From a bacterium (GTDB lineage Bacteria > Bacillota > Clostridia > Lachnospirales > Lachnospiraceae), in assembly GCA_023663725.1 (NCBI GenBank), contig JAMPGX010000019.1, positions 1 to 49,522 on the forward strand: 49,522 nt of DNA, read 5' to 3'. Position numbers and translations under genes: made by a program. Every line of letters starts with the position of its first letter. Positions within the stretch are counted from its first letter, which is position 1. Positions 31,605 to 49,303 of this stretch are shown here, one piece after another. The notes under the pieces were generated by a model. It ran no database searches, had not been told where the DNA came from, and was given only the letters and a program-made list of their open reading frames with translations.

Positions 31605-32060
31605 CTATTGTTCCATCTGCCTGCCCAGAAAGCCTGCCGCCGACATGATCAGCTTGTACTCCACCTCTCCCATCTTTCCCTTGGGGTCGCTCTCCAGCAG
31701 GATGACTGAGCCAATTACATCTCCCTCGCAGATGATCGGCGTGAATGCCAGATGCTGGTAATCGCTCTCCATCTCGTCACAGATCCGAAAGAATATCCGA
31801 TCACCCTGAGAGCATATTCCTGTCTCTCTCTCGTTCATCTTTTCCTCCAGCTGTTTGCTTACCTCCTTACTCAGATAGGCTTTACCGCCTCCGGCGGTGG
31901 CGATGAACTGATCCCTGTCGCTGATCAGGGCCACATGGCCGGATACCTGAGCCAGAGATTCCGCGTACTGTTTCGCGAACGTGGTCATCTCCCCGATGGG
32001 AGAATATTTTTTCAGAATGACCTGTCCCTCCCTGTCTGTGTATATCTCAAGAGGGTCACC
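31605..32060 (-). pseudogene. spoVT: spoVT 3' part, cut off from its start by the element
   Basis: The last 151 codons of this frame match SpoVT, a regulator of late sporulation genes and germination. The match starts at GDPLEIY, about residue 31 of the 178-residue protein, continues through VILKKYSPIGE and HVALISDRD, and ends with the typical AAGFLGRQMEQ. The first 30 residues, half of the AbrB-type DNA-binding domain, are missing. They should lie beyond the far end of the element, outside the window. The GAF-like ligand domain is complete. Here it is translated only as the tail of the recombinase. Confidence 0.9.
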
Positions 32061-33881
32061 ACTACTGATAACATTGACAGTAAAGAGTTTTTCGCTCTGA
32101 TTGCGAGTTTTCAGGCGAAACTTTGTAGTGTTTGGACAGTTTTCTCTTTCCATGCGCAACGTGGATTGAAAACCGTCTGCGTTTAATATAACTTTACTGT
32201 CATTGTCAAAATTTACGGGTATGCTTTCCTCCCGCAAGCGTTCGGCGTGTAAAATAGCATCTACGTCTGCCTTCAGCTTTACATCTATGTGATCCTCATA
32301 CACAGTAATGCGGTCAATGATGAGCTGTAAGTCAATCCTGTCCAGTTTGGGCTTATCTATAATCTCATTAAATACATCAATTACTGTCCTTGCCAGACGG
32401 TTAATCCTGATAATCTCATTGCGCTTGCCTGCGGTTAGATTTACCTGTGTCTGTAACCCACCTATCCGCATGATTGTTTCTTCTTCCAGCTCTGTGTAGG
32501 TTTCTTCTACAATTTCTATCTGACTGGCAATCGCTGGATTTGCCTCTGCCTGCGCTTCAAGTTTGGCAATCTCTTTGATTTTCCTCTTTTTGATTGCTTT
32601 CAATTCCTCTTTTGCGGCTTGCAGATGTTTTTCCAAAATGGAAAGCGTATTTTCGTTTTCCTCTATCTCTGTCGCTTCGTTCTTTATCGAAGCTTCCAGT
32701 TTTTTCATCATATCGCCGGAGTTATCCCTGACTTTCATCACATACTGCTTCAATATGGCGTCCAGTACGTCCACTCTTGTATGATGTGAGGAACACCCCT
32801 TTAATCCCCGCTTGTGATAAGTCCCACAAGTATATGCAGCAGCTATATCGCCCCGGCTCATAGAAAACATTGGCGAGCCGCAATCTCCGCAATACAAAAA
32901 CCCGGAATACACATTATCATACTTCTTAACGCCACGGTAATTTGTTGTAGAACGCTGCTTCAACAAATCTTGTGTAATTATCCATGTACGATTATCAATG
33001 ATTGGCTCGTGATGATTTTCAAATACATAATTTTCATCCGGGCTTATCTTCACATCGGCTCCGTTAATCTTCTTTCGTTTATATTTATGCTGCCTTAGTG
33101 TGCCGATATAAAAGTCATTTGATAAAATACCCTGCACTGTTACTATACTCCATGCTGTGTAGGTCTGCTTCCTTTTATATTCATCGCCCCGTGCTTCTAT
33201 TCTTTCCTTTTCTTTGGCTCTAGGTGTCGGGATATTATGCTCTGTGAGATAATTAGATATCCTTTTATATCCCCACCCCTCATTATACAATGAAAAGATT
33301 TTCCTGACAATTTCCGCTTCGTCCGGTTCAACTGCAATCTCCTGTTTCTTCATATTGGTAATAACGTAACCATAGGGGACTACATTGATCCATTTTCCAT
33401 CTTCCTGCCGTCTGCGTATTACAGTCCTAACTTTTTTACTTGCATCCGTTACAGGCATTTCGTTAATCAAAAACCGAAACTGTATCGCCATCCAATCATC
33501 AAAGGTAGGATAGTCAATCGAATCGCCAATACTGATGATACGCACTCCGGCGTCTCTTAAATCTTCCAGTTCTACAAGCCCTTTGCTGTTTCTTCTGGAA
33601 AAGCGGCTGAAATCTTTAACGATTAAAACTTTCACTTCGCCAGACAAAAGACGTTTTCGCAGCTTCTGATAATCCTCTCTCTGTTCAAACGTATACCCTG
33701 AGCGATCTCTATCTACATAGAAACTCAGTTTACATTTTGGAAACTTTTTTCTAACAAATTCCTCTATGATATTTTTCTGATTTTCTATAGAGGTATTGTC
33801 CTTGTCAAGTTCCTCGTCAACAGAGATACGACAGTATCCGCTTATTTCTTCTTCCAGAAAGGCGTCTGCTATCTTCTCCAT
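31605..33881 (-). CDS. Large serine recombinase fused in frame to SpoVT C-terminus
   Basis: 758 residues. The first 607 are a TndX-like large serine recombinase: resolvase domain with catalytic Ser at 20 (YCRIS), the SRFSRRN motif, a recombinase domain, a zinc ribbon (LYCGDCGSP, later Cys pairs), then a long coiled coil at about 385-490. The last 151 residues are SpoVT from codon 31 on. The switch at about 32060 marks the attachment junction: the recombinase lost its own stop and reads into the target gene. AAGGAGG lies five nucleotides before the ATG at 33881; the frame to 33929 has no such site. Whether the tail impairs the recombinase is unknown. Confidence 0.92.
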   Translation of the reverse strand: MEKIADAFLEEEISGYCRISVDEELDKDNTSIENQKNIIEEFVRKKFPKCKLSFYVDRDRSGYTFEQREDYQKLRKRLLSGEVKVLIVKDFSRFSRRNSKGLVELEDLRDAGVRIISIGDSIDYPTFDDWMAIQFRFLINEMPVTDASKKVRTVIRRRQEDGKWINVVPYGYVITNMKKQEIAVEPDEAEIVRKIFSLYNEGWGYKRISNYLTEHNIPTPRAKEKERIEARGDEYKRKQTYTAWSIVTVQGILSNDFYIGTLRQHKYKRKKINGADVKISPDENYVFENHHEPIIDNRTWIITQDLLKQRSTTNYRGVKKYDNVYSGFLYCGDCGSPMFSMSRGDIAAAYTCGTYHKRGLKGCSSHHTRVDVLDAILKQYVMKVRDNSGDMMKKLEASIKNEATEIEENENTLSILEKHLQAAKEELKAIKKRKIKEIAKLEAQAEANPAIASQIEIVEETYTELEEETIMRIGGLQTQVNLTAGKRNEIIRINRLARTVIDVFNEIIDKPKLDRIDLQLIIDRITVYEDHIDVKLKADVDAILHAERLREESIPVNFDNDSKVILNADGFQSTLRMERENCPNTTKFRLKTRNQSEKLFTVNVISSGDPLEIYTDREGQVILKKYSPIGEMTTFAKQYAESLAQVSGHVALISDRDQFIATAGGGKAYLSKEVSKQLEEKMNERETGICSQGDRIFFRICDEMESDYQHLAFTPIICEGDVIGSVILLESDPKGKMGEVEYKLIMSAAGFLGRQMEQ

Positions 33882-33927
33882 AACTTCCTCCTTATTATCT
33901 ATTTTGTTTTTATCTATTTCAGATAAC

Positions 33928-33956
33928 ATTGTAACTCATAAACAGAAAAAAAGCAA
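33928..33956 (-). promoter_or_regulatory. Promoter of the recombinase
   Basis: Minus-strand -35 TTGCTT (33956-33951), 17-nt spacer, -10 TACAAT (33933-33928), between the small gene and the recombinase. Confidence 0.6.
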
Positions 33957-33962
33957 GCGAAA

Positions 33963-34184
33963 TTATATCTCGATTGCCCTTAAATTTTTATTATGGCTCA
34001 ACAAGCCCTTTGTCTGCTCTAACAAATCCCTGCTACCTGATTCGTATATTACAAATTTATATTTTTTCGCCTTATATTCAGCCATAAGCGGCAGCAATTT
34101 TTCTCTAATCTGCGGATCATCTTTTTCCTCATTCGTAAGCCATACCCCGGCAAATCTAAATCGGTCATTCACTTCAACCTTCAT
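33963..34184 (-). CDS. Small protein of the element, unknown
   Basis: 73 residues, charged, with a likely alpha/beta fold (VNDRFRFAGVWLTNEEK, then YKFVIYESG). I do not recognise the family. GGAGGG lies six nucleotides before the ATG at 34184, which is preferred over the frame from 34250 that begins inside an inverted repeat. It lies directly upstream of the recombinase and may serve it, but this is guesswork. Confidence 0.7.
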   Translation of the reverse strand: MKVEVNDRFRFAGVWLTNEEKDDPQIREKLLPLMAEYKAKKYKFVIYESGSRDLLEQTKGLLSHNKNLRAIEI

Positions 34185-34289: not shown

Positions 34290-34721
34290 CAAAAAATATC
34301 CTGCAAGCAGCCACTTGATAATGGCTCGCATTGGTATCGCACCAGCTTTTCTATCAGCCCATATGGAAGTATCATTATTACAAAGCAGCCTCATCGCACC
34401 GAAGAACCAACCTCCGGTTTTGGCACAGATTTTTTCGCTCATACCTTTGCTTCAATGCTGTATAAACATTTCCTCGCTTTTCATCCAGACAGGACAGGTA
34501 ATCATGGCGTATCCGCCGACCAGCTCCACTGCTTCTCACGTCTTGCAGAATACTAATATGAAATTTTCAAGGTACATACACCAACTCACGTTGACGGGCA
34601 AAATCTCTCTGCCATTTTGGATAAAATCTTCTCTGGACTTGTCAGCCCAAAAAGCACATAAGCACTCCCGTCTGCTATGAACGGTTCTGTAAAATTTATG
34701 TGCTTTATAGGAATGACAAGT
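34290..34721. other. Stretch without a supported gene
   Basis: Two overlapping plus-strand frames of 92 and 121 codons cross this stretch, but neither has a ribosome site or any similarity I can name. A decayed gene fragment is possible. Confidence 0.4.
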
Positions 34722-35640: not shown

Positions 35641-35713
35641 AAAAAATCAAATGCCGGATACGGCATATTCAACTGCATTTTCGATGATTCCAATGCAGGG
35701 AAAGGAGCCTCAA

Positions 35714-36055
35714 ATGCCAAAAAGAGAACGAAAAATACCAATACAGGTTTATCTAAGTGAGGACGAGGACTATATCCTCACGCAAAAGCAGAAAGCGTCC
35801 GGATTAAAAAGCAAATCCTCCTTCCTGCGCCAACTTATTTTGTACGGTTACGTCTATGACATTGACTATTCAGAGCTTCAGGAATACAATGCTGCGCTTG
35901 CCAGAATCGGGAACAGCTTAAACCAGATCGCAAAGCGCATGAACGCCACAGGCAACGTATATAAAGCCGATGTAAACGAAGTAAAGGAGCTGATGCAAAA
36001 GGTATGGCATACACAAAAATCCATGCTGTCACGGCAACCGTTAATAAAGCAGTAG
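35714..36055 (+). CDS. mobC: Mobilization accessory protein MobC
   Basis: 113 residues with the MobC relaxosome pattern: a ribbon-helix-helix-like N-terminus (IPIQVYLSEDEDYILTQKQ) and the conserved RIGNSLNQIAKRMN segment near 75-88. It should bind oriT and assist the relaxase. AAAGGAG lies six nucleotides before the ATG at 35714; the longer frame has no ribosome site. Its end overlaps the relaxase start by 52 nt, showing tight coupling. Confidence 0.88.
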   Translation: MPKRERKIPIQVYLSEDEDYILTQKQKASGLKSKSSFLRQLILYGYVYDIDYSELQEYNAALARIGNSLNQIAKRMNATGNVYKADVNEVKELMQKVWHTQKSMLSRQPLIKQ

Positions 36056-37401
36056 CCTATATCTGCAACCCTGCTAAGACCGATGAGGGCATACTGATTT
36101 CTTCATATGGGTGCAGCCCCGAAACTGCCGCCTATGATTTCAAATTTGCGCTGTCAAAGACCAGCCAGTCAGATAAAAACAAAGCCTATCATCTGATACA
36201 ATCCTTTTTCCCCGGCGAGGTTTCCTATGCGGAAGCCCACCGGATCGGCGTGGAGCTTGCCGACAGACTTTTAGAGGGAAGATACTCTTACGTTGTCAGC
36301 ACCCATATAGACAGGGGACACGTTCACAACCACATCATTTTCTGCGCCGCCGATAACATCAATCATGAGAAGTATCACGACTGTAAAAAGACCTACTACA
36401 ACATCCGCAGTCTGAGCGATGACCTCTGCCGGGAGCATGAGCTTTCCGTCATCACACCGGGAGAAAAGCGGGGCAAAACCTATAAGGAATGGCAGGCTGG
36501 CAAAAGCGGTTCTGCGTGGAAAGAACAGTTAAAAGCCGATATTGACGAAGCCATAAAAAACGCCGCTACTTACGAGGATTGCATTGAGCTGATCCGGGCA
36601 AAAGGCTACGAAGTCAAGGGCGAAACCTTCGGGGAAAACGCCCATAAATTTATATCCTTCCGCCCTCTGGACAGGGAGCGTTTTGTCCGTGGCAGCGCAA
36701 AGTCTTTGGGAACTGAATACACCAAAGAACGGATCAGGGAGCGCATTGCGGAAAAGGAACTTGCAAAGGATAAAAAGCGTGTGCCGTTCCCCATTCGGAA
36801 GAAACCCATTGTCAGAGATTATTCCAAGAAAAATCTCATTGACACCACCGAAGATAAGTTTTCCGAAAGCCCCGGTCTGAAACATTGGGCTGACATTCAA
36901 AACCTTAAAATCGCCGCCGCAAGCTACAGTCAGGCAGGCTCTATCGCAGAGCTTGAAAAGCAGATTGCCGCCAAGTCTGCGCTTGCAAAAACCGCACGGG
37001 AAAGCCTCGTGGAAACAGAGCATCAGCTAAAGGATTTCGGGCAGGTTCTAAAGTATGCCGAGCAGTATAAAGCCAACCGTATCTACCATATCCGCTACCA
37101 GAAGTCAAAGGATAAGGACAGATACCTGCGCCAGCACGAGACGGAGCTTCTGCTCCATGACGGCGCTGAAAATATGTTAAAGCGCCTCGGAATCGACACC
37201 GGAAACCTCGATGTGGAAAAGCTGCGCAGCGATTACAATGCGCTGTATTCCAAAAAGGAAACCCTGCAAAAAACATATAAGTCTGCAGCAAAAGAACACG
37301 ATGCGCTGGTGCGGAAACTGGATAACCTGAACCAATACCTTGGCGCTCCCCAAGCGTCTGTTGCCAACAAAAATATGGATAAAAATACCAAAACTCTCTA
37401 A
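36004..37401 (+). CDS. mobA: Relaxase of the MOBP (MobA/VirD2-like) type
   Basis: 465 residues. The N-terminal relaxase domain has a conserved Tyr (Y19) in NKAVAYI and the metal triad region STHIDRGHVHNH (99-110, His at 101, 106, 108, 110). The sequence resembles the relaxases of Tn1549-like elements (pattern YICNPAKTDEG). The C-terminal part is coiled-coil. It should nick oriT and lead the strand into a recipient. A hairpin terminator follows at 37415-37460. It appears intact. Confidence 0.9.
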   Translation: MAYTKIHAVTATVNKAVAYICNPAKTDEGILISSYGCSPETAAYDFKFALSKTSQSDKNKAYHLIQSFFPGEVSYAEAHRIGVELADRLLEGRYSYVVSTHIDRGHVHNHIIFCAADNINHEKYHDCKKTYYNIRSLSDDLCREHELSVITPGEKRGKTYKEWQAGKSGSAWKEQLKADIDEAIKNAATYEDCIELIRAKGYEVKGETFGENAHKFISFRPLDRERFVRGSAKSLGTEYTKERIRERIAEKELAKDKKRVPFPIRKKPIVRDYSKKNLIDTTEDKFSESPGLKHWADIQNLKIAAASYSQAGSIAELEKQIAAKSALAKTARESLVETEHQLKDFGQVLKYAEQYKANRIYHIRYQKSKDKDRYLRQHETELLLHDGAENMLKRLGIDTGNLDVEKLRSDYNALYSKKETLQKTYKSAAKEHDALVRKLDNLNQYLGAPQASVANKNMDKNTKTL

Positions 37402-37638: not shown

Positions 37639-40600
37639 TTATTGCCCTGCGTCCTCAGTCTCCTGTTCCTCTTTCCTCTTTCGCAATAATATAATCGCAG
37701 CAATCATGATAAGTATGATAATCGCCAGCCACACAAAGTAGCATATTCCTAAGAATGTTGGGCAGATATGGCAAAGTCCGCATTTATGTCCTGTCCTTTC
37801 CGTCTGCACATAGGCAATCGCATAGCTTGAAAACAGATCCGTGCTGACTGTGATCGTGCTTGGCTCATCATCCATATCATTCATAAAGGCAGATACGCCG
37901 TCATGCGCACGAATGATATAATATGTCCTGCCTTTTTCCTGCAACTTTTCAGGAATCCCGATGATGATTTCTATCGGTTCCCTCGTTGCGGTAATAGCGT
38001 TCCAATCGCTCTCTCCAATCCTGATAAACATGGAGATGTCAACATACATTCCGAGCGTCAGCCCCGGCACTTCTTTCTGATATTCCTCAATGCCGCTTTC
38101 TATCACTTCCTTGTCCTGCTCCGGCACCTGATCGGAAATATCTTTTACATCAATCCGAATTTCTATGGTTTCGCCATGATTTACAAGCTGTATCTGCTCC
38201 GGTGTCAGAACCGCATTGGCTACGGCAAGGGTATCTGCCACGCCTGCGGTGTATTCCTGTCCCGCACATACTACCGTCACGATTACTGCACCGTTTCCTA
38301 ATTTCAAGACGGTCTTTGTATCAGCCATTCCTTCCACATTGCCCGTTGCAACAGGTTCGCCGGATATGACAATCTTTCCGTTATCCACGGCTGCGGAAAC
38401 AGTCTGCTCTCCGTCTCCCTCCGGCTGCTTCTCCGTTTCGGACGGTTTCTCTGTCGGCTCCGGTGTTTCAGTCGGTTGCGGCTGTTCCGACGGATCGGTC
38501 GGGCTTGGCGGCTGTGGCGTTGGTGTATCTGTCGGTTGTGGCGGAACCGGAGGCTCCGGTGTCGGAGTAGGTGTCGGCTGTCCGTCCTGCTCGTCATCGC
38601 CATCCGAAATCGTTCTTACCCAGCCACAGTCATTACACTTGGTATCTCTGTCATTGTCATAATTGTGACGCTGTTTCGCACTAACTGTTCCGCAGCGGGA
38701 GCATACCTTCCAATGCCCACTTGCATCATAATGATAATTTCCGCTGTAATCATGTCCTAGCGCTACCGTGACGGTCTGCGCTTTTATCACATGACCGCAT
38801 ACAGAACAGTGACTCCCCTCTGAAAGCCCCGTTTCCGTACAGGTTGCTGCCTTTGCCGGGTCCGCAACTGCTGTGTGTCCTTTTGCCGGGATTGTCACAT
38901 CCTGCGCCGTGACCTCTTTCGTGCAGGAGCTGTCCAAGAACCATTTACCACAGGAACATCTATAATATGCCTTGTTTCCCGCCGTGGTACAGGTCGGCTC
39001 TGTTGCCGCTACCAATGTTCCGCTATGGGTATGCGTCCCTATCGTCCTTTGATAATTACATTTATTACAGGTGGCGTCGTTATCATTATCGAACACATGA
39101 CTTTCCGGTGTCTGCGCTGCATTACAGCGGGAGCATAATCTCCAATGCCCGTTTGTATCAAACAAATACTCTCCAACAAAGTTATGCCCAAGTTTTCCAA
39201 CCACCACGCTTGTATGGTCTGTAATCTCATTTGCGCAGGCGCTGTCAGTAAACCATTTGCCACAATCACAGGTATAATATGCCTCATGCCCATCTTTCGT
39301 ACAGGTAGCCGTTTCTGCCTCAACCAATGTTCCGCTGTGGGTATGCCCCGGAAGCGTTCTCACATAACCGCATACATTACATTTCGTGTCTGTATCATTG
39401 TCATATACATGAGGCTCTCCCTGCTGCTTCTCCGTACAGCGGGAACACTTCTTCCAGTGTTCGTCCTGATTGCGATCAGTTACGTTGAAATTATGTCCCA
39501 ACGCATCCAGCTTTGTTTCCTGTTCTGTAATCTCAGCCGTGCATCCGCTGTCTGAGAACAGCTTCCCGCAGGAAGAACAGCTATAATATGCGATGTTGCC
39601 TGGCAGGGTGCAGGTCGGGTCCGTTGCCCTTACCAATGTTCCGCTATGGGTATGTCCCGGATCAACCGCCCTTGAGTACCCGCATACCGTACACTTATTG
39701 TCAGCATCAAAGCTATGATCCGCTTCCTGCTCTGTTATGCTGCAACGGGAACATTTCCTCCAGTGCTTTGTGGTACTGACAATATAAGGCTCGCCTTCAA
39801 AATAATGCCCCAATGCGTTAAGTACCACTGTTGACTGATTCACAATCTCATTCGTACAGCCGCTGTCTGAAAACAGTTTCCCACAGGTACAGGTATAATG
39901 TTCCTTATTTCCTGCCGTGGTACAGGTCGGGTCTACTGCCGGAACCAATGTTCCGCTATGGGTATGTACTTTGACTGTATATGTTTCCATAGCGCTGTTT
40001 CCTGCGTTGTCGGTGGCTGTCACGGAAATAACCACTCCGTCTGCCGAAATCCCGCTTGCCGGAATCTCATTTGCCTGAATCGTAAAGCTGTCACTCTCTA
40101 CCATGCTTGCCGTATAGTTATGCGGTACTGTCTTTACACTTCCGCCGTTAATCTGATAGCTGACAGAAGCAATTCCTCCGGAAATCACATTGTCCTTGTC
40201 ATCTGCTACGGTCACGACAATTTGGGGAGCTGTCTTATACTCTCCCGATGGCAGAAGCTCGGCATTTTCTGCCTTAAATGCAATCTTCGGTGCATTGTCC
40301 TCAATAATGATACCTGTTGCACCTAAGTCCGCTCCCACGGTCACGCCTGCCGATGTGTTACCCGCCTGATCGGTACAGGTAATCGAAATCGTTCCCTTGA
40401 AATTCTTAGAAACGGTAATCTTTGCCTCGCCATTCTGAATCGTGGCTGTTTCCACCTTTGCCGTACCGCCGTCCGGCGTCTCGGTATAGGTTATTTTATC
40501 TGCCCCGCTGCCTTCTTCCGTTACAGGCACGGTAATAATCAGGCTTTTCTTTCCAATCAGCCACTGCCAGAAGTTTTTCGGCTGATAATCGTAGGAAAGC

Positions 40601-43600
40601 GTACCGATTACCGGAGCAATGTTGTCCGTCCATTTTGCCCAATACTCCTTATTCCCGGTATCAGAAACCGAAATACTTGAAACCGCTGTTCCGGTGCAGC
40701 TCTCGTTGTCATACCAGCCGTCAAAGACATATCCTGTTTTCGTCCAGTTTGTCGGTAAGACTGCCCCGGTTCCATAATCATAGGAAGTTAGGTCTGTGCC
40801 TCCGGTTCCTCCGTTTGTATGCAGGGTAACCGTATAACCTTTTACCTCCCAATGTGCAGTATAAGTGCGGTTTCCGGTACTTCCTGACGCAATGGTAACG
40901 CTCATATGATTGTTACCTGTTAAATCTGTTCCGCCCCAGCCTGTAAAGGTATATCCCTCTCTGGTCGGGTTATTTAAGGTTATGGCGCTATCCTCAATCG
41001 TATAGCTTGCCGGATTGCCCGTCACAGTTCCTCCATCCAGCACATATGTAATGGAATAGCTGATCGGCGTCCACTTTGCCCAATATTCCTTATTTCCAGT
41101 CGCTGTGGCAAGAATCTCCGTTACTTCCGTTCCAGCGGTGCAGTCCTCATTGTCATACCAGCCTGCAAAGCTATATCCTGCCCTCGTCCAGTCTGTCGGC
41201 AGGGTTGCTCCCGTTCCATGCGCATAGGAAATCAGAGATGTACCGCCTTTCCCTCCGTTTCCGTTCAGCGTAACCGTATAATCAGCGGCAGTCCAGTGTG
41301 CCTTATACTCACGATCCCCTGTACTTCCCGCCGAAATGGTAACGCTCATGTTATTGCTGCCTGTCAAATCAGTGCCGCTCCAGCCGCCAAAGCTGTAACC
41401 TGTCTTTGTCGGATTGACTAAGGTTATGGCACTGCTCTCAATCGTGTATTCTGTCGGATTGCCCGTCACAGTACCGCCGTCCAAATCATATGAAATGTTA
41501 TAGTCGGTTGGCGTCCATTTCGCCCAGAATGACTTATCTCCGGTAGCTGTGGCGTCAATCTCTGTTACTGCTGTTTTGGTGCAATCTTTATTAGCGTACC
41601 AACCTGCAAAGTCATAGCCTGTTTTTGTCCAGTCTGTCGGCAGAGTTGTTACCGTTCCACAGGTATAGGAAGTGAGGTCTGTGCCTCCGGTTCCTCCGTT
41701 TGTATGCAGGGTAACATCATAGCTTTTCGGTGCCCATTTCGCATAAAGCGTTATCATATCCCCAGCCGGCGTGTAGGTTCCGTCACTATCCGCCCGCAAA
41801 CCGGTACAAGATGCTTCTGCATACCAGCCCGCAAAGGTATAGCCCGCTCTCGTGGGCGTATAGGTTACCGATGTCGGTGTCCACTGGGCGTATAGGGTAA
41901 CCGTTCTGTTATTTGTCTCCGTCAGGTTCTCTACAGATGCTTTGTCGTCATAGGAAGTGCCGCTCCCATCCGCTTCCGTATTCCAGCCTGCAAATGTATA
42001 GGCAACGGTCTTATCCGTACTGCTGCTTCCCATATAATTAGGATTAAAGGTAACCGTACACGACCTTGTGAAGCCATTGGCAGTCAGAGCCTTTGCCGTA
42101 CCGTATGTATGGGAGCTGTTCGCTGTGCTGCCGCCTGTGCTGCCGTTTCCGTCATATGATACGGTATATCCAATCGGCGTCCATTTCGCCCAATATTCCT
42201 TGTCCCCGGTATCTTGGGTAGAAATTTCCGTTACCGGATCTCCGCTGCAATCTTTATTGTCATACCAGCCGCCGAACGTGTACCCTGTCCTCGTCCAGCC
42301 TGCTGGCAGTTTCGCTCCCGTTCCATAAGTATATGTTGTAAGACCATCTCCAGTTCCACCATTGCTGTTCAGAGTAACCTTATAATTTGTCGGAACCTCC
42401 TGCACTTCCCTTGTAATCTTAATGGTATATGTTTTCGACATTCCACCAGAAGTCACGGTAATTACAATCGTATTCTCGCCCTCAGCAAGATTAACTGTTT
42501 TCGGCTTCCCGTTTTCCATATCTGCTGCCGCACCATCGCCAATTTTGATTGTAATGTCTGCTCCCGATGCCGTAGTCGCTGTAATATCAATGGAGTTCAC
42601 ATCATTGCCTACGGTTGCCTCATAGTTCGTTATATCAGCTTGGAAATTCGGTTCCAGTTTCGCTCCTTCTGCGGTCAAATCAAGTCCCGAAAGGTCGCAA
42701 GTTCCCGGCAGAGCTAGGAACAGTTCATTTCCGTCTTTAACAATTTTATACTCCTTTTTATCACTGAAAAAGCAACTCCAGTCAGCAGAAGTAATCGGAT
42801 ATGATTTTCCGCTCACGGGATTGGTTCCACCACCTGCAACTGGTACAGGAGTAGGTTTTGCAGGTGTCGGTGGAGTTTGTGCAGTAACTCCAATAGACGA
42901 ACCTTTCAAATTATCGGTAACATCAAAAAACATTCCCCCTCTAAAGAAAATATTACTTGCTGTACCATCCTTACCCGTGTTGCCAACAATATTTACCACA
43001 CCAGATATAGAAAACGTTGCATTCGCCGAAGAAAATATACCACCCCCCAAATTAGTATTCGCTACTCTATTATTGATAATAGATGCATTCGATATTGTTA
43101 TATCTCCATCCACATATATTCCTCCAGCTTGAGTGCCGGCAGTGTTTTCCTCAATACTACCTCCCAGTATTCTCATATGTGTAAATGCGCCATATATCCC
43201 CCCTCCCTGTGCAATACCAGCAGAATTATTTATAATTTTCCCACCATATATATTAATTGTAGAATACTTATCACTCCCACCAGAACTATAAATCGCACCA
43301 CCACCATTAGTAGCGACATTATCCTTAATAGTTCCGCCAAACATATTAAATGTAGTTCCGTTATACATATATATAGCTCCACCACGAATCATTGGTTTTT
43401 GCTCGGTTCCTACATTATGTCCCTTTCCCCCCGTAATACAACCTGTATCATTTTTACAATCACAAAGGGTAAAGGTAGCACCCTCGCTCACTACAATCAC
43501 ACTTCCTGTACCACCGGAATGTGTCAATGTCTGACCGTTCAAGCATAAAGTCACTTCGCCATCAATGGTAATTGTTCCCATTGTTATGTTTTCATCGTCA

Positions 43601-44655
43601 TCGTTGTCAGATAAATAATACTTTCCTCCTGATAATGTAATCTCCTCGGCAGTATCAGCAGAAAGCGCTGTCCAATCATCTTCCCCATGATGTTCACTAA
43701 CATCCGCCAGCATGACCGCATGATCTGAAAGTGTTTTCGCAAGTTCCACCCATGCCATCAGTTTTGCCAGTTCTTCCTCCGGCATCTGCGCCTGCTGTTC
43801 CACTGTCAGCGCCTCGTATTCCTCCCAAATGGCAAGCTCTTTCTCCGCATACTCGTACAGCTTTTTCTCCCATTCTATATAAGCATCCTCATCTTCTTCC
43901 ATATCCGGCTCTAAGGCAAGATATTCCTCCTCATCCGGCAGTGACGCTATCCGGTCAAGCAAAGTCTGTATCGCAAAGTCGGTGCCACTTTCACTTTCTT
44001 TTACTGTTACCGTAATTTGCGGCAGACTGACCTCCTCTGCCAGTGTATAGCCGTCTGGCAGAACTACGGTAAAAGTATATGTTCCCTCCGCACTCCCGTC
44101 ATACTCAGGCTCAGACTTCCATGTAATGCCGCTTATCGTAACGGTTTCTTCCTGCCTATCGGTCTGTGTGTTTTCTAAGGTCTGTTCATCTTCGGTATCA
44201 GCTATGTCCTCGCTGTCCGTAACTGCTGTTTCATCTATAGATTCGCAGAGAGTTTCCTCTGAAACATTGCCTTCTTCAGACTGTGTGTCCTGTTCCTTCT
44301 TGGTTTCTGTAAACTCAGGATTTTCTATGTTATCGGTTTCCCCGGTATTTTCCTGTTCTGTGCTTCCCTGTTCACTATCTTCCACTTTCAGTTCGGAAGA
44401 TTCCCGCAACAAATAGACTGCTAATTCTTCAGGCAAATCTAACTCATCCATGTTCGTTCCCGTGAATACAGTCTGTTCTTTAACTTCCTCTGATAAAGGA
44501 TCAAATGCTGTAATAATACTTTCTTGTAGGAAACCTTCCTCCTGTCCTGCCGCAGTTACCGGGAATACATTTTGTATTCCCGGCATCGTAAACAGCACGC
44601 AAAGACAGAGTAAAGTGGCAAAAAAACGGTGTTTTTTTCTTTGCCTTCTTGACAT
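37639..44655 (-). CDS. Giant membrane-anchored surface protein
   Basis: 2338 residues. Signal peptide (1-36), Glu/Thr-rich stretch, Ig-like and helical parts to about 330, a parallel beta-helix of GGxI repeats (about 338-572), a cadherin-like sandwich (about 655-752), eight InlB-type B repeats (about 755-1347), an Ig-like pair, four Cys-rich repeats starting HTHSGTL (about 1565-2017), a Pro/Thr stalk, a C-terminal domain, and a membrane helix (about 2302-2324) followed by RKRK. No LPxTG motif is seen, so it is held by the helix. It looks like an adhesin. AAGGAG precedes the ATG. It ends the four-gene cargo operon; the gap to the gene before it is 15 nt. Confidence 0.88.
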   Translation of the reverse strand: MSRRQRKKHRFFATLLCLCVLFTMPGIQNVFPVTAAGQEEGFLQESIITAFDPLSEEVKEQTVFTGTNMDELDLPEELAVYLLRESSELKVEDSEQGSTEQENTGETDNIENPEFTETKKEQDTQSEEGNVSEETLCESIDETAVTDSEDIADTEDEQTLENTQTDRQEETVTISGITWKSEPEYDGSAEGTYTFTVVLPDGYTLAEEVSLPQITVTVKESESGTDFAIQTLLDRIASLPDEEEYLALEPDMEEDEDAYIEWEKKLYEYAEKELAIWEEYEALTVEQQAQMPEEELAKLMAWVELAKTLSDHAVMLADVSEHHGEDDWTALSADTAEEITLSGGKYYLSDNDDDENITMGTITIDGEVTLCLNGQTLTHSGGTGSVIVVSEGATFTLCDCKNDTGCITGGKGHNVGTEQKPMIRGGAIYMYNGTTFNMFGGTIKDNVATNGGGAIYSSGGSDKYSTINIYGGKIINNSAGIAQGGGIYGAFTHMRILGGSIEENTAGTQAGGIYVDGDITISNASIINNRVANTNLGGGIFSSANATFSISGVVNIVGNTGKDGTASNIFFRGGMFFDVTDNLKGSSIGVTAQTPPTPAKPTPVPVAGGGTNPVSGKSYPITSADWSCFFSDKKEYKIVKDGNELFLALPGTCDLSGLDLTAEGAKLEPNFQADITNYEATVGNDVNSIDITATTASGADITIKIGDGAAADMENGKPKTVNLAEGENTIVITVTSGGMSKTYTIKITREVQEVPTNYKVTLNSNGGTGDGLTTYTYGTGAKLPAGWTRTGYTFGGWYDNKDCSGDPVTEISTQDTGDKEYWAKWTPIGYTVSYDGNGSTGGSTANSSHTYGTAKALTANGFTRSCTVTFNPNYMGSSSTDKTVAYTFAGWNTEADGSGTSYDDKASVENLTETNNRTVTLYAQWTPTSVTYTPTRAGYTFAGWYAEASCTGLRADSDGTYTPAGDMITLYAKWAPKSYDVTLHTNGGTGGTDLTSYTCGTVTTLPTDWTKTGYDFAGWYANKDCTKTAVTEIDATATGDKSFWAKWTPTDYNISYDLDGGTVTGNPTEYTIESSAITLVNPTKTGYSFGGWSGTDLTGSNNMSVTISAGSTGDREYKAHWTAADYTVTLNGNGGKGGTSLISYAHGTGATLPTDWTRAGYSFAGWYDNEDCTAGTEVTEILATATGNKEYWAKWTPISYSITYVLDGGTVTGNPASYTIEDSAITLNNPTREGYTFTGWGGTDLTGNNHMSVTIASGSTGNRTYTAHWEVKGYTVTLHTNGGTGGTDLTSYDYGTGAVLPTNWTKTGYVFDGWYDNESCTGTAVSSISVSDTGNKEYWAKWTDNIAPVIGTLSYDYQPKNFWQWLIGKKSLIITVPVTEEGSGADKITYTETPDGGTAKVETATIQNGEAKITVSKNFKGTISITCTDQAGNTSAGVTVGADLGATGIIIEDNAPKIAFKAENAELLPSGEYKTAPQIVVTVADDKDNVISGGIASVSYQINGGSVKTVPHNYTASMVESDSFTIQANEIPASGISADGVVISVTATDNAGNSAMETYTVKVHTHSGTLVPAVDPTCTTAGNKEHYTCTCGKLFSDSGCTNEIVNQSTVVLNALGHYFEGEPYIVSTTKHWRKCSRCSITEQEADHSFDADNKCTVCGYSRAVDPGHTHSGTLVRATDPTCTLPGNIAYYSCSSCGKLFSDSGCTAEITEQETKLDALGHNFNVTDRNQDEHWKKCSRCTEKQQGEPHVYDNDTDTKCNVCGYVRTLPGHTHSGTLVEAETATCTKDGHEAYYTCDCGKWFTDSACANEITDHTSVVVGKLGHNFVGEYLFDTNGHWRLCSRCNAAQTPESHVFDNDNDATCNKCNYQRTIGTHTHSGTLVAATEPTCTTAGNKAYYRCSCGKWFLDSSCTKEVTAQDVTIPAKGHTAVADPAKAATCTETGLSEGSHCSVCGHVIKAQTVTVALGHDYSGNYHYDASGHWKVCSRCGTVSAKQRHNYDNDRDTKCNDCGWVRTISDGDDEQDGQPTPTPTPEPPVPPQPTDTPTPQPPSPTDPSEQPQPTETPEPTEKPSETEKQPEGDGEQTVSAAVDNGKIVISGEPVATGNVEGMADTKTVLKLGNGAVIVTVVCAGQEYTAGVADTLAVANAVLTPEQIQLVNHGETIEIRIDVKDISDQVPEQDKEVIESGIEEYQKEVPGLTLGMYVDISMFIRIGESDWNAITATREPIEIIIGIPEKLQEKGRTYYIIRAHDGVSAFMNDMDDEPSTITVSTDLFSSYAIAYVQTERTGHKCGLCHICPTFLGICYFVWLAIIILIMIAAIILLRKRKEEQETEDAGQ
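38605..39968. repeat. Four Cys-rich HTHSGTL repeats
   Basis: Units of about 100 codons starting HTHSGTLV, each with paired Cys in TCxCGK, CSRC and CxxCGY positions; the fourth is longer, with an extra CxxCG segment. Spacing suggests small zinc-binding or disulfide modules. Confidence 0.8.
40620..42390. repeat. InlB-type B repeats of alternating two kinds
   Basis: Eight units of about 70-75 codons. Units 4, 6 and 8 (NGGxGGTxLxSY, ending AKWT) alternate with units 5 and 7 (LDGGTVTGNP, GGTDLTG). Copies near 40790 and 41670 are almost identical in DNA over about 45 bases. Confidence 0.85.
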
Positions 44656-44670
44656 AAATCCATCTCCTTA

Positions 44671-47163
44671 CTAAAAAACGATTGAACTCGTCAGCTTATC
44701 ATATTGTGGAGTGTATATAGTTTCTTTGCTACTATACGCCAACACTTGATAAGCCATAGGTAAAAACGCTATATTGTAAACTGCACTCAAATCTATGCTT
44801 TCCTCTGAGTTTCCACTGGTATATACACGAATACAATGTTCTCCATATAAGTCCATCACTTCCTCTAATGGTTCAAAGCTGCAAGTTTCATCAAGCGGAT
44901 TCTCGTCTTCATCGACTATCCACAACAAATAATAATCTGCCCCTTCAACACTGTCCCATACCGCAGTATACGGCTCTTGCCAGCCCAAATTCTCCGGTCT
45001 TGCAAGCGTTGTAACAGTATTGCTTACAGTTCCCCCTATGCTTCCCTCCGGGATATTCTCGAATACCGGTGTCACACTAAAGTTAAAGGTTCCGCCCGCT
45101 GTAAACCGCTTTAATGCTTCTGTGAAATCCAGTTCAGTTCCAATAACTTCTATCGCACCGGCATTGACATAGGTTATATTATCCCCCTTAAAATCTTCTG
45201 CATAGAGCGGGTAATTCACTCTCTTAGCCTCACTCTCTAGTCCAACACGATAAGCTTTCGCACCTTCTACAGCTTTCCATGTAGCCCAGATTGGACGCTC
45301 ATAGACATACTCCGCTGATCTTATATCCCATTCTGCATTTTCCACTTTCGTGCAGATCAGTTTTCCGTACAGGGTAACATCTCCAGTCGGAGTATATTCA
45401 CTGCCCGCTTTCCCTGCACTTTCCGTACACCCTTCATCCAGATACCACGCATCCAGATAATAGCCATCACGGGTAAATTGCGGCAGCCGGACGCTGGCTG
45501 ATTCCCACACCGCATAGAGCGATACTCTGCCTTCTTCTACGTCTGTCAGATTACGGACAATTTCCTCGTCATTATATACCTTTGCACCATGATTCTCTGT
45601 TGCCCAACCTACAAAGATGCAGTTTGCCTCCTGATTAAAACCAAACTTTTCGCCTGTCCCGGTAACTATCTCAAAATTTATCGTATACTTATTTGTATAT
45701 TCATTTTTATAAAGTCTTTGTTCCTCATCATAGTAAAATGTCTGCATAGGCATCCATCTCTGTTGCTCCAGATGATCTGTCATGAAATTCACATTATACC
45801 GGTTTGATTCCCACATAGCGCAGGTTAATACAGAATGATTCGGTACTAAACCGGGAAGACTTCCCCACTTGATAAAAGTATATCCCCGTCTGCTTACATC
45901 ATGCTTCTCGTTAGGAATACTATGATTGTAGGGCAACCATTCCTCAATAAAATCCGTCTCACCAAATGTTCCGCCGTTGGCACTATATTGTACTGCATAC
46001 TTGGCAGGGTAATAACAGTATTCAATTACGGTAGAGCCGTCTGCCTGAACTGTCGCCGTGATTGGAGCCGGTCTTTCAAAACCACTTTTTTCATGCGGAC
46101 ATGGCGTAACCTGTGCGCCCGCCATATTGTATAATGTTTCTTCCTCGCAATAATCATCTTCTACATAGTTATGCCTGACCGTATATTTTACAGACTCCGG
46201 CACATATTGACCACGCAGATACATCCCCCGCCTTTCATTGAAAAATCCATTCCCCGGATAAAGCATTCCATTATCGGTATCCAGCCAGCCTTGAAGTATA
46301 TATCCCTCAGCAGAATCCTCTGACAGAGTAACGCCATTCAAATCTATAGAAGTACCAAAACTATTATGTCTCTCATAATATTCATATTTTTTATCTACCA
46401 CACTAACTTTGCCTACTAATCTTATTCCAGAAGTATACTGACACACTATTTGAATCGGTCCAACGGTCGATCGGATATCCATAACACCCAAATAAGTAGT
46501 GTACGACTTGGGACGCTCTATCATGGAAAAATGATACAAAGGAACTATATTTGCATACCTTGCACTTTTGCTTTCATTTTTATCTTCAGATTTTATGTGG
46601 GTAAAAGTGACGTCATATAAATCGTAATATGCTTCATTAGTTTCATCGCTATCATATCTCTCATCTTGAGGAATCCCCGACCATTCCGAACTACAGTTAT
46701 TTTTACCTATTGTTTTACAACTGTCCCTATCGGAAAGGACATAACCAACATAGGTGCTGGAACTGGAGCTGTCGCTTCTTTTACAAACAGGAATCATAAT
46801 ATCCTGACTAATGGATACCTTCGTATAGGCAGGAAGCATCACTTCGTGTGATATTTTAATCATGACTGCTTTGAACAGCTTGTTCCCGTTGGATGGTATA
46901 TCGTAAAGCCCATCGTAGTCTGTCAAAAAAAAGCCCGCCTGATCTGGTGTATTAAATCTTTCCGCTGAACAGAGAAGTACTCCTTTTCGTCTCCATAAAT
47001 CCAGTACATAGCCTTCATCCGCATTAAAATTCACAACATCCCCTACACTGCTCCATGCAAGAACATCAGGCTGGTTGTTACTCTGTAATGCCTTTACTAT
47101 ATATTTACATTTTATATACGATTCTGATTTCGCACTCTGAACCGCAGTTTCCTTATTTCCCAT
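44671..47163 (-). CDS. Leaderless repeat protein, larger paralogue
   Basis: 830 residues with no signal peptide (MGNKETAVQSAKS) and no membrane helix. The N-terminal domain (about 15-240) shares FKAVM, LPAYTKV and CKR with the next gene's product. The middle has several B-repeat-like beta units (SANGGTFGETDF, then ERRGMYLRGQYVPE), and the C-terminus has fibronectin-like units (EKGAKAYRVGLE-type, DSVEGADYYLLW). I recognise no family for the N-domain. It has AAGGAG before the ATG and sits 15 nt from the giant surface protein gene. Either it is cytoplasmic or it leaves by an unknown route. Confidence 0.8.
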   Translation of the reverse strand: MGNKETAVQSAKSESYIKCKYIVKALQSNNQPDVLAWSSVGDVVNFNADEGYVLDLWRRKGVLLCSAERFNTPDQAGFFLTDYDGLYDIPSNGNKLFKAVMIKISHEVMLPAYTKVSISQDIMIPVCKRSDSSSSSTYVGYVLSDRDSCKTIGKNNCSSEWSGIPQDERYDSDETNEAYYDLYDVTFTHIKSEDKNESKSARYANIVPLYHFSMIERPKSYTTYLGVMDIRSTVGPIQIVCQYTSGIRLVGKVSVVDKKYEYYERHNSFGTSIDLNGVTLSEDSAEGYILQGWLDTDNGMLYPGNGFFNERRGMYLRGQYVPESVKYTVRHNYVEDDYCEEETLYNMAGAQVTPCPHEKSGFERPAPITATVQADGSTVIEYCYYPAKYAVQYSANGGTFGETDFIEEWLPYNHSIPNEKHDVSRRGYTFIKWGSLPGLVPNHSVLTCAMWESNRYNVNFMTDHLEQQRWMPMQTFYYDEEQRLYKNEYTNKYTINFEIVTGTGEKFGFNQEANCIFVGWATENHGAKVYNDEEIVRNLTDVEEGRVSLYAVWESASVRLPQFTRDGYYLDAWYLDEGCTESAGKAGSEYTPTGDVTLYGKLICTKVENAEWDIRSAEYVYERPIWATWKAVEGAKAYRVGLESEAKRVNYPLYAEDFKGDNITYVNAGAIEVIGTELDFTEALKRFTAGGTFNFSVTPVFENIPEGSIGGTVSNTVTTLARPENLGWQEPYTAVWDSVEGADYYLLWIVDEDENPLDETCSFEPLEEVMDLYGEHCIRVYTSGNSEESIDLSAVYNIAFLPMAYQVLAYSSKETIYTPQYDKLTSSIVF

Positions 47164-47184
47164 CGCTTTTCTCCTTCCGCTCCT

Positions 47185-48750
47185 TCAAATATCCGCTTCC
47201 CATTCCGCTTTGATAGTCAGATCATGTGCCGGCATGTTTTGGTTGCTTACCGACCATTTACTAAAAATATATCCCGGTCTTTTCTCTACTTGCGGATATT
47301 CTATTTTATCGCCATACATAACCTCATTTTCAATATAGTCCTGAACAGACGGCTCGTTTTTGAATCTGCCTCCATTCGGCAAAAATCTTAGTATATACTT
47401 TTTCCTTCTATATTTGTATGTTACTACCGTGGAGCCGTATCCACTGATTACTACTAATTGAGCTGACGGTGCCCCAAATCCTTCATAGCACTTTACATCA
47501 GGTGCAACCTTCTGCCCTGCTGTTCCTGTCAAGATTTCATATTCCGTCGGTTCGTCAGGAAAAGTCCCATCTATATTTTGCAAAATATGTTCTACACGAT
47601 ACTCTACAGTTTCCGGCACCCACTGAGCGGTCAGATGCATTCCTCGCCTTTCCCTGAAAAGCCCGCCTGCCGGATAAATACGTTCTGACACTCGATCCTT
47701 CCAACCGCTCAATATGTATCCTTTCTTCTTTGCTTTACATAGATAAACTTCCTCTTGTTTACGGGAATCAAAACAAATCTTTTGTGTATATCTTTCATGG
47801 TCAGTTATTCCATCAATAGTACCTCCAGCGGCATCATAATCAATATAATATTCTCCACTGATTCTGGCACTGAACGTATCCTCAATCCGGTCAAACACCA
47901 GCAAACGGTGGTTGATTGAGGACGCCTTATCAATACTGCCCATTATGTATAGAGTGAATGTCTTAACTCTTGCTTCGCAAGTATCATTCTCTTCTGTACC
48001 GCATTCATAGTCTGTAAGGCTCAGGCGCAGATTTTCCTTTTTGCCGTTGCCTTGAGCAAGCGTACAGTCCGTCGGATTATTCGACTTAATGACTCCATTG
48101 TTATCTGCCCAGTGACTATTGCCGGAAATAAGCGGTGTCCATGTATCTTTGTCTGAGATGATTGCGCCGATCCATGAAGCAGATGTTTCCCCGCCACGCT
48201 TAAATACATGGAGGTTCATCGTCACATTCAATGTGACTTTCGAATAGGCGGGCACAACAACCGTATAATCTGCCTTGCCCATGACAGCCTTAAAATTCTT
48301 ATTTCCATGTGTATCGCTTGAGTCCAGAATGTGTTCTGAGTATGACAGCACAAACCCCGGTGTGAATGTCGTTCCTGACGCACAACAGCTCACACCCATC
48401 CGATCCCATAAATTTGCCACCGTTTGCGCACTCTTATCGGCGTTGCTGTTCCAGCTTAGAGGTGAAATATTTTTGCTGTTTTGCAGGGCTTTCATCGTAA
48501 AATCTGTATAAAGCTCTGCGCTTTCATAAGCTGACAGCTCTTTCTCTAATGCTTCTGTCTCCATCTGCACATTTGGATTACATAGCCGCACATAATAGTT
48601 ACCACTGGAAATCAGCTTGTAATATTCCTCCGACTGTTTCAGTGCTTCCTCCCTGCGGGCTATTACTTCCTCCGTATCCTCCGGCTCGCCTCCATTGGGA
48701 AGCTGCGCTTCCAAATTTTCTGTGTTTTCCAAGTTTTCTGCGTTCCCCAT
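47185..48750 (-). CDS. Leaderless repeat protein, smaller paralogue
   Basis: 521 residues, no signal peptide (MGNAENLENTENLEAQ), an acidic N-terminal helix to about 75, then the N-domain shared with the 830-residue paralogue: NFKAVMGK, VVPAYSKVTLNV, HVFKRGG and IGAIISDKDTW. Two or three B-repeat-like beta units follow (YDAAGGTIDGI, ERRGMHLTAQWVPE, LPNGGRF). The shared domain plus repeats shows descent by duplication. AAGGAGG precedes the ATG; the gaps are 19 nt to the receiver gene and 21 nt to its paralogue. Function unknown. Confidence 0.8.
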   Translation of the reverse strand: MGNAENLENTENLEAQLPNGGEPEDTEEVIARREEALKQSEEYYKLISSGNYYVRLCNPNVQMETEALEKELSAYESAELYTDFTMKALQNSKNISPLSWNSNADKSAQTVANLWDRMGVSCCASGTTFTPGFVLSYSEHILDSSDTHGNKNFKAVMGKADYTVVVPAYSKVTLNVTMNLHVFKRGGETSASWIGAIISDKDTWTPLISGNSHWADNNGVIKSNNPTDCTLAQGNGKKENLRLSLTDYECGTEENDTCEARVKTFTLYIMGSIDKASSINHRLLVFDRIEDTFSARISGEYYIDYDAAGGTIDGITDHERYTQKICFDSRKQEEVYLCKAKKKGYILSGWKDRVSERIYPAGGLFRERRGMHLTAQWVPETVEYRVEHILQNIDGTFPDEPTEYEILTGTAGQKVAPDVKCYEGFGAPSAQLVVISGYGSTVVTYKYRRKKYILRFLPNGGRFKNEPSVQDYIENEVMYGDKIEYPQVEKRPGYIFSKWSVSNQNMPAHDLTIKAEWEADI

Positions 48751-48769: not shown

Positions 48770-49303
48770 TTATGAATCTTTGTGAAACCATCTTTTCAGA
48801 AACTCCTTAATAGATTTTCTGCGTTTTTCCTCTTTTGCCTGTATTGATATGTCGGAATCGTCAGGATATATTGGAGATTCCGTCGCAATTCGTTCTATTT
48901 CCATAACTCTTTTTATGGCTTCGTTTAATGTTTCAAACAGCTTTTCTTCGCTTACGGGTTTTAGAAGATACTGCATTGCGTCCACCGCAAAGGCATCCAG
49001 ACAGTTATCTGATGTTGAGGATTTATAAATGATAACGCCCGTAAAGCCTTTATCCCGCAGTATCCTGCCGCATTTAATGCCATTACCGTCTGGTAGGTAA
49101 ATATCCATGAGCAGTATGTCATACGCCCATTCCGTATCTGCCCCAGTACACATTGCCTCCATAAAAGTTTTGACTTCCGTATGGCAGGCTACAATATATT
49201 CGTGTTCCGGGTGCATTTCCTCATAGGCAGAAATCATTTGTTCCATTTTGTGTATCTCTTTTACATCATCGTCAAGCACCGCTATCCTTATCTGATTTTT
49301 CAT
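48770..49303 (-). CDS. Receiver-only response regulator (LytR/AgrA-like receiver)
   Basis: 177 residues. Receiver features are complete: LDDD at 10-13, phosphoacceptor Asp67 in LLMDIYLPDGNG, Ser95/Ser96 in the YKSS position and Lys115 in YLLKP. The VDAMQYLLKPVSEEKL segment is typical of LytR/AgrA-type receivers, yet no LytTR DNA-binding domain follows, only about 45 residues with a basic tail (KEEKRRKSIKEFLKR). It is the first gene of the cargo operon; GGAGG lies eight nucleotides before the ATG. A partner kinase may lie beyond the window. Confidence 0.85.
   Translation of the reverse strand: MKNQIRIAVLDDDVKEIHKMEQMISAYEEMHPEHEYIVACHTEVKTFMEAMCTGADTEWAYDILLMDIYLPDGNGIKCGRILRDKGFTGVIIYKSSTSDNCLDAFAVDAMQYLLKPVSEEKLFETLNEAIKRVMEIERIATESPIYPDDSDISIQAKEEKRRKSIKEFLKRWFHKDS

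Follow-up and report, generated by a model that had tools for sequence, protein, structure and literature searches.

The locus raises the question of how a large serine recombinase (LSR) comes to end in SpoVT, and what this says about the element that encodes it. The window, i.e. the whole stretch of DNA analysed (49,522 nt), corresponds to positions 1-49522 of contig C10 in a draft assembly of 49 contigs (G000); C10 itself extends to 61478. An initial annotation of this DNA had proposed that a mobile element split spoVT and that its recombinase became a SpoVT chimera. The answer favored here, with a probability of about 0.87, is a family of integrative elements whose LSR would have its attachment site at codon 32 of spoVT, the corresponding site of the element lying inside the LSR gene, so that integration would be a reversible trade of C-termini.

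A recombinase fused in frame to SpoVT

The open reading frame at 31605-33929 on the minus strand is confirmed as an in-frame fusion of an LSR with SpoVT, the latter starting at codon 31/32 and complete to its end. The features of the window are as follows.

31605..33929 (-): LSR-SpoVT chimera, 774 aa (758 aa from the ATG at 33881), by domain and structure matches
31605..32055 (-): host spoVT, from the third base of codon 32 to the stop
32056..32057 (-): crossover dinucleotide GA, placed by comparison with relatives in which both ends are known
32058..32081 (-): attR arm of the element (ACTGTCAATGTTATCAGTAGTGGT), which also codes for the last LSR residues, by arm-pattern scan and inverted match in the other arm
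32250..33881 (-): LSR core, by domain matches and the LSR survey
33963..34184 (-): small conserved ORF (73 aa) preceding the LSR, which may encode a directionality factor
34328..34378 (-): pemK RNA motif (RF02913, 37.2 bits, gathering threshold 34.8)
35651..36055 (+): NikA/MobC-like mobilisation protein
36004..37401 (+): relaxase (MobA/VirD2-like)
37639..48750 (-): cargo, three large proteins with Listeria-Bacteroides repeats, the third below the curated cut-off
48770..49303 (-): response regulator

The recombinase core is uninterrupted, with all three serine-recombinase domains (Resolvase, Recombinase and Zn_ribbon_recom) at residues 31-397 of the chimera (774-aa numbering). In the same numbering, SpoVT_C (PF15714) covers residues 647-773 (E 3.9e-43), residues 621-773 correspond to positions 27-180 of TIGR02851 (E 2.5e-48, below the whole-protein cut-off of that model) and residues 621-774 align with residues 28-178 of the SpoVT structure 2w1t (PDB). 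These three matches bear out the annotation of residues 608-758 (758-aa numbering) as SpoVT in frame from about codon 31 to its natural end, where G608-D609-P610 are G31-D32-P33 of SpoVT. The join cuts the 55-residue N-terminal piece of SpoVT (2ro5) and leaves the C-terminal piece (2w1r) entire. Chance is excluded because of the domain E-values and of 21 further joins at the same codon.

Upstream of the chimera, the presence of both a relaxase and a mobilisation gene is a feature of integrative conjugative or mobilisable elements. C10 goes on for 12 kb beyond the window and encodes there a polyvalent protein of 1708 aa; the element appears to extend as far as the contig end at 61478; its second end was not seen on C10 up to that position. 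The pemK RNA motif (Rfam) recurs on contigs L041 (4196-4252) and L043 (2370-2424), and lies upstream of the small ORF and the LSR in all three elements. The small ORF itself precedes the LSR in 16 of 20 loci (some of which duplicate one genome) and in all three loci of a further set; in G304, G308 and L091, other genes stand between its position and the LSR. No match passed the threshold when a 95-aa frame was searched in Pfam and a 76-aa frame in PHROGs and NCBIfam, and no informative fold was obtained for the protein. Its size is like that of known or proposed directionality factors, which in the accessible parts of the literature measure 58 aa (SprB), 53 aa (CD1234) and 72 aa (the yin candidate), and on this ground it may be a directionality factor.

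Distribution of the join

In total, 22 in-frame LSR-SpoVT joins were found. All share one codon, and they are spread over five or more families within a single phylum. A 23-base pattern for the LSR-side arm, scanned against genome_contigs, matched 13 contigs, and 13 of 13 lead in frame into SpoVT at the identical codon. To these are added the window, four genomes in other families of the class (G372, G339, G493 and G416), the contig L090, which is of faecal origin and classified with phages, and G882, G1017 and G1074, three genomes whose family does not belong to the class. A complete LSR is visible in 16 of the 22, the other six being cut by contig ends. Most of the records named here are metagenome-assembled genomes (MAGs).

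Within the family of the window, 188 of 299 genomes have a SpoVT match (E<=1e-10). Among the matches listed, most ORFs are 180-265 aa long and, besides the window, at least four reach 430-786 aa. Surveys with the LSR gave matches in 4/299 genomes of the family (E<=1e-120), 9/391 of the class (E<=1e-70) and 4/398 of the phylum (E<=1e-90), with overlap between these sets (G000 is counted in all three, G060 in two). Occurrence is patchy, with 5/299 family genomes when G064, with an LSR truncated at the end of its contig, is included. All survey matches with at least 45% identity sit in spoVT, and every one is fused except that of G681; LSR cores of fused members go down to 52% identity with that of the window. 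In G681 (LSR 45% identity), the element is likewise in spoVT and its unfused LSR ends 140 nt before SpoVT codon 31; the join is therefore not essential for insertion at spoVT. For the more distant LSRs of G506 and G614 (33-36% identity), no SpoVT was present within the fetched flanks. A related LSR (57%) on L091 (MT839487.1) is accompanied by the small ORF and a mobilisation-like gene, on a contig that ends before any join is visible.

The other end, the crossover and the attachment site

If an element split spoVT, the 5' part of the gene should lie at its far end, as the initial annotation had supposed. In the draft assembly of the window, this part is absent: neither another SpoVT nor a spoVT 5' part was detected in the 49 contigs, where only weak AbrB-type matches occur (E 0.01 or worse), and the attL arm was not found either. 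In relatives, however, it is present and joined to the other arm of the element, namely in nine of the 13 genomes that the arm pattern had brought together. Among the 14 fusion genomes searched, nine have spoVT codons 1-33 followed by element sequence (ten junctions, two of them in G306), two have an uninterrupted spoVT on a second contig (G311, and G303 where the contig ends at codon 89) and three (G000, G302 and G310) have neither. In the other families, the 5' part with foreign sequence is found in four of eight genomes searched (G372, G882, G1074 and the unfused G681). The splitting of spoVT by a mobile element whose LSR is joined to the 3' part is thus upheld, both by the domains of the chimera and by the 5' part with its arm in relatives.

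Both ends stand on one contig in two cases, a 12.9 kb element in G304 (L025, a MAG) and an element of about 17.9 kb in G308 (Eubacterium sp. MSJ-21, a record not labelled MAG); in all other genomes, the two ends are on separate contigs and we infer their pairing. Outside the G308 element, past its SpoVT end, lie what we take to be hup, S4-domain, yabQ-like, divIC-like and spoIIE-like genes. In G306, the spoVT 5' part occurs twice (L076:8969 and L076:11376), 2.4 kb apart and each time with the element tail and then a ParA-like ORF, perhaps representing tandem or remnant elements. Nine junctions have a contig break within ~180 bases of the attachment site (L031, L032, L034, L037 and L043, and attL of G299, G300, G305 and G309), as expected where junctions vary within one sample.

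With both ends at hand, attR reads as element arm, GA and host, and attL as host, GA and element arm. In G299, host and element differ in the base on each side of GA, and the crossover is therefore confined to GA, which occupies positions one and two of codon 32. The short core anticipated at both ends does exist in relatives and lies within GGTGACCC. Around GA, one arm is the inverted copy of the other at 18-20 of 24 positions in the nine genomes with both arms known, an inverted symmetry usual in attP sites of serine integrases (PMC5595907, accessible part). The ends found in relatives permit an exact rebuilding of spoVT. As to a free circle or an intact attP, a pattern spanning the core had 0 matches in viral_contigs.

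Reading frames across the junctions

The same reading frame is preserved at both junctions. At attL, SpoVT(1-34) continues, on contigs that are long enough, into 23-56 element-encoded residues before a stop, and a 16-residue motif near the end of this tail is common to the nine complete tails tested. The motif was assessed with blocks chosen by eye and then a leave-one-out profile compared with shuffles; left out were a tenth complete tail (the second copy in G306, a near copy) and three further tails cut by contig ends. None of 2000 shuffles was as good in eight tails, and 4/2000 were in G882. With a profile made solely from the six tails of the window clade, 0/5000 shuffles were as good for G1074, 13/5000 for G372 and 164/5000 for G882, the last being weak. 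The corresponding frame of the unfused G681 lacks the motif (878/1000 shuffles as good). On the LSR side, the 11 fused elements tested all have an open frame through linker and arm, despite a highly variable linker; the probability of an open frame in shuffles is 0.001-0.13 per element (n=11, all known beforehand to be fused and sharing ancestry). Because the frames are open and the tail motif is conserved, the native C-terminus of the LSR most likely spans the attachment site and would be swapped for that of SpoVT on integration.

The favored mechanism can be outlined on this basis. The window would hold one end of an integrative mobile element, as its relaxase, MobC and large polyvalent protein suggest. 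The LSR of the family would use spoVT codon 32 as bacterial attachment site, cutting at GA between the inverted arms, and the attachment site of the element would be an in-frame segment of the LSR gene, in its 3' part. The LSR of the presumed free circle would carry the conserved motif in a short terminal tail. Upon integration, it would gain the last ~150 residues of SpoVT, and SpoVT(1-34) would gain the LSR tail. Recombination of attL with attR would reverse both swaps and restore spoVT to the base. Excision is presumably carried out by the LSR of the family, and SpoVT function is probably lost while the element is inserted.

It is tempting to propose that the swap is also a control device. 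An LSR with its native tail would integrate, and the GAF-like domain of SpoVT in the inserted LSR would act in cis, either changing the direction of recombination or making excision conditional on a signal that the sporulating host provides. In the accessible part of one study, a directionality factor attached to the C-terminus of a serine integrase stimulates attL x attR recombination and reduces that of attP x attB (PMC5737554). Such a role for the SpoVT domain is nevertheless speculative and quite unlikely.

History and cargo of the elements

Sequence identities in the two halves of the join are uncoupled. Between the window and L041, the LSRs are 82% identical and the SpoVT parts 43%, and between L041 and L042 the values are 84% and 47%. 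In genus g664, the reverse is seen, with G1074 and two sister genomes sharing 89-90% identity in the SpoVT part and only 58-59% in the LSR. At the level of sequence comparison, this shows separate histories of the LSR and SpoVT parts, with repeated separate insertion. As the attachment site is inside the LSR gene, the join would be remade from each host's own spoVT at every insertion. The view that the recombinase became a SpoVT chimera is correct in that the fusion is real, but needs amending in that it would be rebuilt each time instead of arising in a one-time event.

Contigs with and without the element share 99/99 nt in G311 and 173/174 nt in G303. The presence of both alleles in these two MAGs is consistent with excision or with empty strains in the sample, and the second alleles could stem from never-occupied strains of the same sample.

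Cargo varies among elements. That of the window includes a relaxase, that of G308 a type I restriction-modification system and Fic, and that of G304, by inspection, transporter, two-component and Fic-like genes. In the type I restriction module of the G308 element (L074:12302-18258), an ORF resembling a tyrosine recombinase is surrounded by several HsdS-like ORFs that face both ways, an arrangement like that of phase-variable systems (HsdM by Pfam, the remainder by inspection).

Sporulation context and alternative explanations

The position of the element in spoVT calls to mind a programmed switch of the skin type, in which the element is excised during sporulation and spoVT is rebuilt on time. 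The initial annotation had put forward such a switch or else a strain that lost spore maturation, and either would for now be hypothetical. The layout is the same as for skin, vfbin, gin, SPbeta and yin, as far as the accessible descriptions of these elements go. According to the available parts of the papers, spoVT mutants of C. difficile give no heat-resistant spores (PMC3789822), mature spores of this species need SpoVT, and B. cereus also requires the protein (PMC5061766). The hosts have kept sporulation genes: SpoIVA is above cut-off in 13 of 14 fusion genomes (absent in G307) and in G022, i.e. in 14 of 15, the top match in 15/15 is to a sigma factor of the sigG type (E 1e-119 or better, none at the curated sigG cut-off) and, by inspection, the genome of the window has an intact sigF-like gene adjoining spoIIAA/AB-like genes. 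Further, the SpoVT parts of the sister species G372 and G339 differ by eight synonymous changes and one nonsynonymous change, a weak signal which, had the element inserted before the two species separated, would reflect selection on the split SpoVT. This timing is, however, not settled by identities of 94.3% in the host flank and 97.8% in the element. An objection comes from the cell compartment. In C. difficile, spoVT is a forespore gene dependent on sigmaF and sigmaG (PMC3789822, accessible part), whereas excision of skinCd and SPbeta is confined to the mother cell (PMC5025042, PMC4191935) and excision in the forespore or in vegetative cells would eliminate skin permanently (PMC5025042), in the portions of these papers available. 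Since excision in the forespore would be heritable, spoVT is an awkward place for a simple skin-like switch. Given also the varied cargo and the patchy occurrence (5/299 family genomes), a programmed switch is considered unlikely.

Another possibility, which comes close to an even chance, is an ordinary selfish element residing in a gene dispensable for growth, with SpoVT lost in the meantime and the SpoVT part of the chimera a mere passenger. The diverse cargo genes described above, the transfer between unlike hosts and the G681 element, unfused and still within spoVT, all agree with it. What it leaves unexplained is the frame that stays open across the site in the 11 fused elements tested, together with the conserved tail; reading through the site is thus probably of importance in one state or more. 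A fusion gene that is stably passed on as a unit and endowed with a new regulatory function could be suspected from the join at the same codon in 22 sequences, but is very improbable and already contradicted by the separate histories of its halves (82% versus 43% identity between the window and L041) and by the finding of the missing spoVT 5' part joined to the other arm of the element. Likewise, an assembly or binning artefact, which the several contigs ending near attachment sites might evoke, is hardly credible in view of the single contigs with both ends in G308 (not labelled MAG) and G304 (MAG), and of a one-codon join that recurs in five families.

Comparison with known systems

An integrative element family with its attachment site at spoVT codon 32 and inside its own LSR gene can be placed among several known systems. 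LSRs of the TnpX/TndX type from conjugative transposons belong to the same LSR family, with matches to TnpX in the PDB (2mhc) and to tndX on plasmids. For tndX, identity is about 31%, and no plasmid record covers 80% of the chimera. With the archaeal 'suicidal' integrases (SSV1, pTN3 and pT26-2), the common point is an attachment site in the gene of the integrase itself (PMC8371274), the free form being in our case one that we infer. These archaeal enzymes are tyrosine recombinases that become split in two, whereas here the LSR core remains whole and the tail alone changes. Self-disrupting recombinases are called exclusively archaeal in the accessible part of that review (PMC8371274), on which these comparisons draw. 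Integration-dependent immunity of mycobacteriophage BPs also relies on an attachment site within a gene, where integration alters the C-terminus of a protein and hence its activity; in BPs, the gene is that of the repressor, which is shortened, whereas here it is that of the integrase, which gains a host domain (PMC4557955, accessible part). A bacterial serine integrase with a C-terminus dependent on the integration state would make testable how the C-terminal region sets the direction of such enzymes, and the family supplies natural pairs of LSR and attachment site with a conserved genomic target.

The nearest relatives in layout are skin (sigK), SPbeta (spsM), vfbin (spoVFB), gin (gerE) and yin (yabG), which share, in the available accounts, a recombinase-encoding element in a sporulation gene that precise excision can restore. 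The present family differs by its target, spoVT, a forespore gene in C. difficile, by the attachment site inside the LSR gene and by the C-terminal swap; it spans several families and cargos and is known from sequence, regulated excision being a property of the known systems. In the literature surveyed (titles and openings of abstracts, with subscription papers mostly outside), no recognisable spoVT element or tail-swapping serine integrase was met. With it, spoVT joins the short list of sporulation genes split by recombinase-encoding elements, at a site that recurs across families and is not restricted to one strain; these are mobile elements of gut bacteria with one exact insertion spot in spoVT. 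A problem for spore biology follows, as excision in the forespore, unlike that in the mother cell, would be inherited. Collectively, elements of this kind were already known, and what is new is the spoVT target together with the design of the attachment site.
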